Source: a virus | Strand: one strand, 5' to 3' | IMG/VR virus record: IMGVR_UViG_3300025120_000212 | Location: 1 to 36,117 of that record | Length of the DNA: 36,117 nt | Shown here: positions 4,379 to 29,628 of the stretch, in pieces | Position numbering within the stretch: the first letter of the stretch is position 1 | Layout: each line of letters begins with the position of its first letter | The notes under the pieces: model-generated | The model's input: the letters and a program-made list of their open reading frames with translations, nothing else | Told to the model about the DNA's origin: nothing | The model's database searches: none | Position numbers and translations under genes: made by a program

Positions 4379-4407
4379 AAGATAGCATAAGTTTAACTTC
4401 ATGTCAA
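4379..4407 (-). promoter_or_regulatory. early promoter, extended -10 type
   Basis: Minus strand: TTGACA (4407-4402), a 17-nt spacer TGAAGTTAAACTTATGC, then TATCTT (4384-4379). The spacer matches the family at most positions, including the TGC extended -10. It drives 4347-3139. It sits just beyond the end of the late operon that stops at 4417; no terminator hairpin is visible between them. Confidence 0.75.
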
Positions 4408-6791: not shown

Positions 6792-6799
6792 TATTTATA
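6792..6799 (-). promoter_or_regulatory. T4-type late promoter TATAAATA
   Basis: An exact TATAAATA on the minus strand lies 26 bp before the start codon of the nuclease-like gene, the spacing expected for a T4 late promoter. It follows the terminator-like hairpin at 6828-6862. It should drive 6766-4417. Confidence 0.7.
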
Positions 6800-26303: not shown

Positions 26304-26807
26304 TTATCCATCATGAGGGTCTTGGTTTAAATGTCTGTGTTTTTCAGCCATTAAGATTACCTGTTTAGCATACTCAGCTTTGTCAACAACACCTTCTTCA
26401 AGTAGCCGTTGTCTATTAACTTCATGTGCCGCTATAGTATCTTCTTTAGATCCACCAGAGTATGGAACACAATGTCCTTCTTCAGTTAAGATCTCTGTGA
26501 CCTTACGCCCATCAGGTACACGAAAGTCTCCAAGAATACGTCCAAACTTACCCTTCATGTCTTCGCCATGTCTATCTTCTGTTGTGATTAGTTTACCGCC
26601 ATCTTTCATAAGTTCTATCAGTCGAGCCTTTGCCGCTTCGCCAAATAGATCTTCTACCTTATCAGATGTTCTTGACTCAGGTGTATCGATACCCATGATC
26701 CTTACTCGTTCATCTTTAAGACAAACACCAAATCCTAGATCGATATCGACATCTACTGTGTCTCCATCTAGAACCTTGATTACTACTACGTCATATTCAT
26801 TTTGCAT
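26304..26807 (-). CDS. thermonuclease-like (SNase) protein
   Basis: The 167-residue protein is a staphylococcal-nuclease-fold protein. VLDGDTVDVDIDLG (12-25) carries the metal-site aspartates, RVRIMGIDTPES (34-45) the catalytic arginine and DTPE, and FGEAAK and KFGRILGDF (87-95) the second arginine. The core active-site residues look intact, so it is probably an active Ca-dependent nuclease that could help degrade host DNA or RNA. I choose the ATG at 26807, preceded by GGGGAAATAAA and starting 1 bp after the GIY-YIG stop, rather than an upstream ATG inside that gene. No signal peptide. Confidence 0.88.
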   Translation of the reverse strand: MQNEYDVVVIKVLDGDTVDVDIDLGFGVCLKDERVRIMGIDTPESRTSDKVEDLFGEAAKARLIELMKDGGKLITTEDRHGEDMKGKFGRILGDFRVPDGRKVTEILTEEGHCVPYSGGSKEDTIAAHEVNRQRLLEEGVVDKAEYAKQVILMAEKHRHLNQDPHDG

Positions 26808-26808
26808 T

Positions 26809-27216
26809 TTATTTCCCCAGTATATGTTTACGGTGTATTTTTCCTCCAATAAATGCATTATAATATTCGTCAGGTTTTAAGAGAACATCTCTTTCTATCT
26901 GATATTTCATTTCATAGTATGAGCACAAGCCTTTTGTCTTGCAAAGTCTTAGTATCTCTCTTTTGAAGTTTTCTGCCCCTTTAGTTTCCACTAGCATTTT
27001 TACTTCGGTGCTACTGCCATAGTATTTACGCCAATCGCTCTCAGAACGGCTCCTAATGGCTCTCTTACGTGTCCTAGTGATAGGGAGCTTCTTTGGCTTC
27101 CAAAAGAACTTCTTGCCAATGTATTTCATACCAGTGTCTAACTCAGTTATCTGATACACAAATCCTTGATACTCTTCTGGTGTTTCATCAAACACTTCAT
27201 CATCATAATACCACAT
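26809..27216 (-). CDS. GIY-YIG family nuclease-like protein
   Basis: The 135-residue protein carries FVYQI (19-23) and MKYIGKKFF (30-38) in the place of the GIY and YIG halves. Basic residues, DWRKYYGSST (61-70), NFKREIL (83-89) and a helix with E102 (YYEMKYQIE) for the metal glutamate follow. It is a stand-alone catalytic domain without an obvious DNA-binding partner domain. It could cut DNA in recombination or host breakdown, or be homing-derived. The ATG directly follows the U-tract of a terminator hairpin, and no strong Shine-Dalgarno is present apart from GGGG inside the stem. A late promoter box overlaps the hairpin. Confidence 0.75.
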   Translation of the reverse strand: MWYYDDEVFDETPEEYQGFVYQITELDTGMKYIGKKFFWKPKKLPITRTRKRAIRSRSESDWRKYYGSSTEVKMLVETKGAENFKREILRLCKTKGLCSYYEMKYQIERDVLLKPDEYYNAFIGGKIHRKHILGK

Positions 27217-27250
27217 AAAAAAATAGCCCCACTATTACATGGGACTATTT
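27217..27250 (-). terminator. intrinsic terminator hairpin, also covering the next start
   Basis: On the minus strand AAATAGTCCCA pairs with TGGGGCTATTT (11 bp, one G-U) around an 8-nt loop, followed by a run of U ending at the ATG of the nuclease gene. It should end most transcripts coming from nrdJ and the zinc-ribbon gene. The only Shine-Dalgarno-like bases of the next gene (GGGG) are in the 3' arm. Confidence 0.85.
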
Positions 27251-27253
27251 ATA
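27246..27253 (-). promoter_or_regulatory. T4-type late promoter overlapping the terminator
   Basis: An exact TATAAATA (27253-27246) overlaps the 5' arm of the hairpin. A late start 6-7 nt downstream, near 27240, would leave out that arm, so the late message could not form the hairpin and the start region would be free. Confidence 0.7.
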
Positions 27254-27254
27254 A

Positions 27255-27389
27255 TCAATCTTCTAGTTGTTCAAAGTACAAGGGAGACCCGCACATCGGA
27301 CAATATTGAGGAACCTCTTCACTATCCACAACTAATACTTGTGTCTCAGTTTCGCAAGCAATACACTCTGCCCAATATTCTTCTTCCAT
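27255..27389 (-). CDS. 44-residue zinc-ribbon protein
   Basis: The frame from ATG 27389 has AAGGAG 6 nt upstream and begins 10 bp after the nrdJ stop. The product holds two CxxC pairs, CIAC (9-12) and CPMC (30-33), spaced as in a small zinc ribbon, in an acidic background. Its TGA stop is 1 bp from the late promoter box. Similar small ribbons occur next to phage nucleotide-metabolism genes; the role is unknown. Confidence 0.75.
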   Translation of the reverse strand: MEEEYWAECIACETETQVLVVDSEEVPQYCPMCGSPLYFEQLED

Positions 27390-27399
27390 GTCTTACTCC

Positions 27400-29628
27400 T
27401 TAAAAGGTTATTTCACAAGCACCACCTTGGCAAGCAATCGCACCCATAGTGTCTATGTCAGTGAACCTCTTCTCAGCAAGCTCCCCAACAAAGTCTATTG
27501 GCTTAATGTTTTGCTGGATCTTCTCCCACTTGTGTAGAAGGAAAACATCCTTAAGGCAATACTCCGTCTCTTTCAAATCGTTCATGAAGTAGTTATCAGC
27601 AAACTTATTAAATCTACGTAGCCATTCAGCACGTTGATCCGACACTTCGCCAAGATACTCAGGTGGAGTTTGAGCTACCATTGTAGCTTCCCACAAGTCA
27701 CGGAATCCAGCCTTGCGAGTATCTACGATAAGACCTGACGCAAACAATGCGGCCTTACCATACTTTTCCACAATTTCCTTTTCTGACAATACTTCTGTCA
27801 TTGGAGCCTGTGCAAAGTCTTTATCACCCATACCAGCCAAGAAACTAATACCAGCAAAGCTATGACGGTTTTCGAAAACATAGTCTTCGATCTCAGACCA
27901 TTGATGCGGCATTACTGTTACAGTGTTGGATACATTGTGACGTGTCTTTGGGTTAGCGCATAACTCAACATTTGTGCCAGCCTCTACCCAATTATTTTGA
28001 ACCAGCTTAACTTTTTCCAACAACTCTGTTGCATACAAGTCTTCCCGATACAAAGAACCCTTAGGTGAAATGATTGGGAAACCTACACAGTAATCAGTGT
28101 TGTTAGATGACCATACAGACTCTTCAACCATGTATGGATTAGTTTTCGCTATTAACTGTCCAACCTCAGTATCTTTGTTAAGTTGAATATGGCGAATGTA
28201 GCGTGGGCTATGCTCACCATGAATACCAGATGCTGTTTGTAAAAGAACTGAAGCGTTACCAGATGGCTTTACACACGTGGTTCTGGCGGCGGCATTAATA
28301 CCAATAAGTTTAGCAACCTCTTTGTTAACTTTCTTAACAATCTCTGCGCCTTCACGCTGAACTTCTGCATCCAGCAATATTTCTGGATTATTCATCCAAC
28401 CTGTGACCGACACACCTAACAATGCTTCACGCTCAAATATTTTTTTACTTGTTTCTGTTAGGTATTTGAAATCAGTATAACCAGCTTGAAGCGTTCCCAT
28501 AATAGCACCTGTACGACACGCCTTAAAGAACTCTTCTTTAGATGTACACTTAGAGCCATTGATCTCTGTTAAGTTACATCCCTGCCAACCACTCTCTCCA
28601 TCTATCTGTGGAAACATTCCAATCTCGACACATGGGTTAGTAGTAATATCTTTGTCATCCACAAAGAAGAAACCGGGCTCTCCAAACTCTTTGATGGACT
28701 GCATGATATCTCTAAAGTCTTCACGCTTGATCTCATCTCGTACAATAACCGCTGAGTTGTTAGAACGTCCACGCTGTGGATTATCAACAAACCAGTTACC
28801 TGTTTTAGCACTAATCATTTCTTCATCGTCTGCACTGAACAAGCAGATCGTTGCGGATCGTCTTACACCACCAGCCAACACTGCATCTGAACCATGCATT
28901 GCTATATCGTAAATGTGAATAGGCTTTAGGCGAGTAGCACCATTTAGAACTTGTGATTGAATAAGATGTTCAATTTTATCTAATGCTCTACGCAATGGCT
29001 CTGGACCGGGGGCTTTAAATCCACCATTAATCATAGCACCCTTTGGACGCACATGAGTAAGATCGAAATATACCTTACGGCCTTCCATCTCAGGGAACTG
29101 ACCACCACCAACAAAGTATGATGACATTAGTGCTCCAAGAGCATCAGCCCATCCTTCGATAGAGTCTTCTACTACCCAACCCTTTGCTTGCTTCTTACGT
29201 TCTGCTATATCTGGCATTTTGTCGGCATGATGCTTTTGCACTGAGAAACCAGCCCCTGCGCCACAGAGAAGCACGTAGAACAACTCTGAGAAAAATCGTG
29301 GGCGGTCAGCATACGTTGAAGTGCAGTTGTACATCCGCATCATGTGCTTCAATAGCTGGTCTCCACCAAACTGTAATGCTCTCTGTGCGCCTAGAGCATA
29401 CTTCAACTTATATGATGCTTCTGCTTCATCTATTAATAGAGCGAGTTCAGGACTCATCTTCTCTTCGTAAAAATCTCTGTGCATTTCCATAACACGTGAG
29501 ACTGAATCGTCCCAACTTTCATAACGTTCTTTTGTATCGTCCCACCTACTATATCCTTCGTAGAATTTAGTTTCGGACATGAGATTCCTTGTATCCCTAT
29601 CTCTATTGTTGTTGACAAGCTTGAGCAT
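27400..29628 (-). CDS. nrdJ: class II (adenosylcobalamin-dependent) ribonucleotide reductase, monomeric RTPR type
   Basis: The 742-residue enzyme reduces ribonucleotides to deoxyribonucleotides using coenzyme B12 as radical source, so it works without oxygen or an NrdB subunit. Its length is close to the Lactobacillus leichmannii RTPR (739). Visible landmarks: NCTS (101-104) with a candidate redox cysteine, GGVRRSATI (253-261), the active-site NPCVEI (331-336; N, thiyl-radical C333 and E), GCNLTEI (350-356), and the C-terminal CQGGAC pair (C733/C738) that passes electrons from thioredoxin. The host must provide or import B12. ATG 29628 has GAGG upstream. It has its own promoter and leader. 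Confidence 0.96.
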   Translation of the reverse strand: MLKLVNNNRDRDTRNLMSETKFYEGYSRWDDTKERYESWDDSVSRVMEMHRDFYEEKMSPELALLIDEAEASYKLKYALGAQRALQFGGDQLLKHMMRMYNCTSTYADRPRFFSELFYVLLCGAGAGFSVQKHHADKMPDIAERKKQAKGWVVEDSIEGWADALGALMSSYFVGGGQFPEMEGRKVYFDLTHVRPKGAMINGGFKAPGPEPLRRALDKIEHLIQSQVLNGATRLKPIHIYDIAMHGSDAVLAGGVRRSATICLFSADDEEMISAKTGNWFVDNPQRGRSNNSAVIVRDEIKREDFRDIMQSIKEFGEPGFFFVDDKDITTNPCVEIGMFPQIDGESGWQGCNLTEINGSKCTSKEEFFKACRTGAIMGTLQAGYTDFKYLTETSKKIFEREALLGVSVTGWMNNPEILLDAEVQREGAEIVKKVNKEVAKLIGINAAARTTCVKPSGNASVLLQTASGIHGEHSPRYIRHIQLNKDTEVGQLIAKTNPYMVEESVWSSNNTDYCVGFPIISPKGSLYREDLYATELLEKVKLVQNNWVEAGTNVELCANPKTRHNVSNTVTVMPHQWSEIEDYVFENRHSFAGISFLAGMGDKDFAQAPMTEVLSEKEIVEKYGKAALFASGLIVDTRKAGFRDLWEATMVAQTPPEYLGEVSDQRAEWLRRFNKFADNYFMNDLKETEYCLKDVFLLHKWEKIQQNIKPIDFVGELAEKRFTDIDTMGAIACQGGACEITF

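Follow-up and report, generated by a model that had tools for sequence, protein, structure and literature searches.

PeSL cassettes of T4-type phages consist of an early promoter and a stem-loop, so that promoter and terminator are brought together in a short intergenic unit ahead of different genes. In T4 I-TevI, segB and gene e, and in Aeh1 mobE, the late promoter is part of the 5′ strand of the hairpin which hides the ribosome site on early or middle RNA (PMC2988022, PMC3014915); in the accounts of gene e, I-TevI and segB, a terminator is no part of the logic. T4 late promoters sit at −13 to −6 (PMC1524935). The initial annotation of the DNA analyzed here had pointed out a likeness to I-TevI and lysozyme e, and the published accounts bear out that both genes use the hairpin/late-promoter layout (PMC3014915, PMC2988022).

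The locus to be compared with these systems lies on the minus strand of a viral DNA of 36,117 nt, the whole of which is referred to below as the window. Its features are, in the direction of transcription:

27400-29628, minus strand: nrdJ-like ribonucleotide reductase gene (phrog_367, E = 2.5e-92), presumably the head of the unit ended by the terminator
27258-27389, minus strand: 44-aa CPxCG zinc-ribbon ORF directly upstream of the element, with two CxxC motifs and a strong Shine-Dalgarno (SD) sequence, AAGGAG
27253-27246, minus strand: T4-type late promoter box TATAAATA, exact consensus, retained in relatives with differing stems
27250-27239, minus strand: hairpin 5′ arm AAATAGTCCCAT, overlapped by the box (from folding, terminator search and covariation)
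27240, minus strand: predicted late transcription start, with the box at −13 to −6 (geometry from PMC1524935), giving a 24-nt leader
27238-27233, minus strand: hairpin loop GTAATA
27232-27221, minus strand: hairpin 3′ arm GTGGGGCTATTT, containing an SD-like G-run at 27230-27227
27223-27217, minus strand: U-run of the putative intrinsic terminator, seven U, ending at the SegE ATG
27216, minus strand: SegE ATG
26809-27216, minus strand: SegE-type GIY-YIG endonuclease gene, 135 aa (PF19835 SegE_GIY-YIG, phrog_447)
26304-26807, minus strand: SNase-like gene directly after the SegE stop (PF00565, E = 6e-9 for ORF 26304-26858), with its presumed start at ATG 26807

The arrangement of hairpin, box and U-run ahead of SegE is confirmed. 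The stem spans 27250-27221 and has 12 bp, including two G-U pairs, with four GC; it had been described as an 11-bp stem, which is one pair short, but both the U-run reaching the ATG and the overlap of the box with the 5′ arm stand as first described. The 101-nt context is not unusually stable overall (z = −0.43), so what stands out is the local hairpin with its U-run.

The product of the gene behind the hairpin matches PF19835 (SegE_GIY-YIG) with E = 4.8e-35 and 120.9 bits, above the curated cut-off of 25, residues 2-123 aligning with profile positions 1-123; its match to phrog_447 has E = 2e-40. The protein is a GIY-YIG nuclease, as had been noticed from the sequence, but it is of the SegE type and has no particular kinship to I-TevI. 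Other start codons were considered for SegE and rejected: an upstream in-frame start is absent, the Pfam alignment begins at residue 2 and nearly all relatives retain ATGTGG. With relatives in at least 769 phage records, the gene looks more like a settled than a mobile one. The family is often called ‘NAD synthetase’ (phrog_447, many GenBank records), a label without support from the Pfam match. On either side of SegE, the 44-aa ORF matches Zn_ribbon_8 below the cut-off, and the SNase-like gene is likely the second gene of the SegE late unit. Since a strong sigma-70-like site lies at 26295-26268, ahead of the next unit, an early region may here enclose a late island made up of SegE and the SNase-like gene. 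The window also contains five near-identical sigma-70-like sites (TTGACATNAAGTTAAA..TATGCTAATAT) at 4407, 8738, 9379, 9871 and 10318 (−); a near-palindrome, TTGAC..GTTAA/GTCAA, lies over the −35 of these five and is possibly an operator.

A strict terminator search of the 36-kb window (at least 10 bp, at least 4 GC and a TTTT tail) returned a single match, the hairpin upstream of SegE, and 40 Markov-shuffled windows contained a mean of 0.0 strict terminators, whether the box was required or not. The GC-containing stem followed immediately by a U-run is what is looked for in an intrinsic terminator. On these features, the hairpin is first of all a predicted intrinsic terminator. The initial annotation had read it as such for nrdJ; the gene directly upstream is the zinc-ribbon ORF, so the unit it would end is nrdJ plus the zinc ribbon.

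With respect to initiation, the T4 position of −13 to −6 predicts a late start within the hairpin, in agreement with what had been proposed. From this predicted start the late RNA would lack the 5′ arm, without which the hairpin cannot fold. TAAATA boxes are present 20-32 nt before six ORFs of the window, versus about 0.04 expected per distance. Besides the SegE box, TAAATA boxes lie 24-29 nt before ORFs at window positions 6798, 5086 and 33334 (−), and two of these ORFs seem to share their N-terminus (MQSFLNYLNE and MLSFKQHLTE). A gp55-like sigma gene occurs in the contigs of four long relatives out of 13, and there is none in the 36-kb window, itself a fragment. No −35/−10 promoter is listed at the element, so the early sigma-70 promoter of a PeSL cassette was not found there: the present promoter would be late and overlaps the stem, whereas that of PeSL is early and adjacent. 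What the two would have in common is a promoter and a terminator within one compact intergenic unit placed ahead of various genes. The box and the gp55-like gene of the long relatives resemble the T4-type late promoter (gp55, gp33, gp45), a free-standing promoter that is here nested in a putative terminator stem.

Folding of the SegE element gave a hairpin of about −15 to −15.5 kcal/mol, versus −2.0 kcal/mol for the leader only. The SD-like bases had been placed solely in the 3′ arm, and this was found to be the case: the G-run is paired in the read-through RNA, with an unpaired probability of about 0, and mostly free in the predicted late RNA, where the value is 0.85-0.98 for three of its four Gs. 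The run is weak, its anti-SD duplex being of only −5.5 kcal/mol, 17th of 45 window genes. Across SegE elements, the medians are −13.3 kcal/mol for the hairpin, −0.6 kcal/mol for the leader alone and −6.4 kcal/mol for the anti-SD duplex.

For a comparison across relatives, at least 160 SegE loci were taken from viral contigs, some contigs being represented twice, and gave 97 distinct upstream regions; counts from this collection refer to the matches listed and are not to be taken as frequencies. Hairpin and box occur together in 40 of the 97, with a U-run of at least five U in 31 and little U-run in nine. In hairpin elements, 21-32 nt separate the box from the ATG. Three regions have the hairpin without a TAAATA box; in nine a TAAATA box is present but no hairpin was detected, and the remaining 45 have neither under strict criteria. 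In many of these 45, TATATA ends some 5 nt ahead of the ATG (L071, L258, L302, L320 and others). TATATA-N5-ATG showed no genome-wide enrichment in the contigs tested, where SegE has TATATA, so this variant is not yet established as a late promoter. A minority (e.g., L027, L037, L041) keep the gene with no stem and neither box, a finding that had been named beforehand as one that would speak against the switch; it indicates that the family can do without the switch, and does not show that this window lacks it. In two reverse-strand loci (L051, L201) an extra gene, with a product beginning MHSFKNYITE or similar, is placed exactly between the element and SegE; in their close relatives L059 and L060 the element directly precedes SegE. 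In L040, L042, L043 and L044, four contigs identical in upstream sequence, SegE appears to begin at an ATC that is preceded by GGAG.

Compensatory changes in the stem, which had been suggested as a check in related phages, were found: sequences diverge widely and pairing stays. In an alignment of 11 SegE elements (A2, used instead of the first MAFFT alignment, A1, which misaligned three shifted stems), 96.7% of cells are paired and covariation is 0.278, versus 0.170 shuffled and at most 0.117 when slid; the SegE rows have common ancestry, so the shuffles overstate significance. An alignment of 11 elements before other genes (A3) is 100% paired, a percentage inflated by its having been chosen by hand from pattern matches with good folds ahead of open frames; its covariation is 0.535, versus 0.111 shuffled.

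The elements before other genes came from a pattern scan. Among the matches listed, the element precedes a gp4-like head-closure gene, a gp25-like baseplate gene, a neck/adaptor gene (phrog_211) and other phage genes, and it usually lies 14-28 nt behind another gene of the same strand. A looser pattern scan gave a match list that was mostly chance-like. Megablast of the locus against phage records gave no match, and Rfam found nothing at the locus. The box-stem-CTATTT form was absent from the 12 phage records scanned (T4, KVP40, Syn9, P-SSM2, P-HM1, S-SSM4, HTVC008M, Melnitz-3, C48C1, B23, OC and phiN3), four of which contain five loose pattern matches.

Among the nine box-only SegE regions, one (L046) forms a stem once the whole element is folded, another (L319) has the box 12 nt from the ATG, and in the remaining seven TAAATA ends exactly 5 nt before the ATG. 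The same spacing was found before 12 annotated genes of HTVC008M (KC465899; loci L447-L449), many of them late structural genes, including gp2, gp3, gp4, gp25, gp48 and the tape measure gene; when ORFs were called mechanically, 11 had the box at this distance, versus about 0.1 expected. A leaderless late mRNA is predicted from this layout. Late promoters have been reported as not found by earlier methods in the group of HTVC008M (PMC7029224). Marine T4-like phages may have two interchangeable late-gene layouts, a start-guarding terminator with a nested late promoter or a box placed exactly 5 nt ahead of the ATG, with SegE genes switching between both and HTVC008M using the leaderless one for many structural genes; we consider this proposal about equally likely to hold or to fail.

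For the locus itself, we regard as probable a composite element: an intrinsic terminator, its U-run touching the next start codon, carries a T4-type late promoter within its 5′ arm. Such an element would end the RNA of the nrdJ unit, start the late SegE RNA and mask the SegE start before then. Its anatomy, conservation, covariation and recurrence can be read from the sequences, and termination, the late start site and translational masking are what we infer from them. Before late transcription, RNA running through nrdJ and the zinc-ribbon gene would fold the hairpin and terminate, and in read-through RNA the sole SD-like bases would be trapped by pairing in the stem. At late times, a gp55-type polymerase would initiate at about 27240; the resulting RNA, with its short leader and no 5′ arm, would not terminate and would leave the G-run open, so that the nuclease would be translated, and probably also the SNase-like gene behind it.

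That the hairpin is a plain bidirectional terminator, in which TATAAATA arises only because an A-tract pairs with the U-run, seems very improbable. A 3′ arm ending in CTATTT does force AAATAG in the 5′ arm, but the leading T of TAAATA never varies even though it is mostly unpaired, L276 has its box outside the stem, and in L014, L036 and L038, a branch nested among hairpin-bearing rows of the tree, the hairpin is gone and the box is kept 5 nt before the ATG. As judged from these sequences, the box is under its own constraint and no by-product of the stem; the boxes ahead of other window ORFs likewise speak against a by-product. A translational switch exactly like that of I-TevI, with no terminator function, is also unlikely. 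The layout is indeed that of gene e and I-TevI (PMC3014915, PMC2988022), yet a U-run follows the stem in most of the hairpin-and-box elements (the 31 of 40 above) and also before unrelated genes, and the hairpin is the only strong terminator in the window. What the initial annotation had taken from I-TevI is supported in part: the sequences are in keeping with the layout, the predicted late start in the hairpin and a covarying stem, but do not support the switch as a general explanation, since the same element stands before other late genes whose 3′ arms lack an SD.

A compact terminator plus late promoter, in which start masking has no role, is a narrower form of the composite-element reading, and the confidences in the two overlap; we hold it as a tentative possibility. 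Several elements before gp4-, gp25-, neck- and other genes have a C-rich 3′ arm, a leader without SD and a phage gene ending just upstream, which indicates that the shared function would be that of terminator and late promoter, masking being only an extra in SegE. SegE 3′ arms, by contrast, are mostly G-rich: G exceeds C in 23 of 27 SegE elements, which are related and not 27 independent events, versus 4 of 14 where the element precedes another gene. Furthermore, some SegE hairpins that have lost the U-run (L016, L075) retain the stem, with GGAG-type bases in the 3′ arm, which would be expected if masking plays a role. Within the composite element, it is thus plausible that ribosome-site masking is an addition in SegE, outside the shared function.

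Compared with the hairpin-masked late genes of T4, the present element likewise has a predicted late promoter within the hairpin's 5′ strand and may hide the ribosome site in a similar way, and GIY-YIG endonucleases are among the users in T4 as well. It differs in that its hairpin is also a putative intrinsic terminator, in its weak SD and in its recurrence before several other genes. In marine relatives of T4, a single 40-base stretch appears to stop one RNA, start the next one late and hide its start codon until then, and the same stretch appears to recur before several phage genes. If true, this would extend a textbook case of T4 control to uncultured ocean phages, with terminator, late promoter and ribosome-site mask combined in 40 bp of sequence that is employed repeatedly ahead of different genes. 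Late promoters in pelagimyophages, where earlier searches failed, could also be sought by a sequence rule: the box lies at −5 or inside a terminator.
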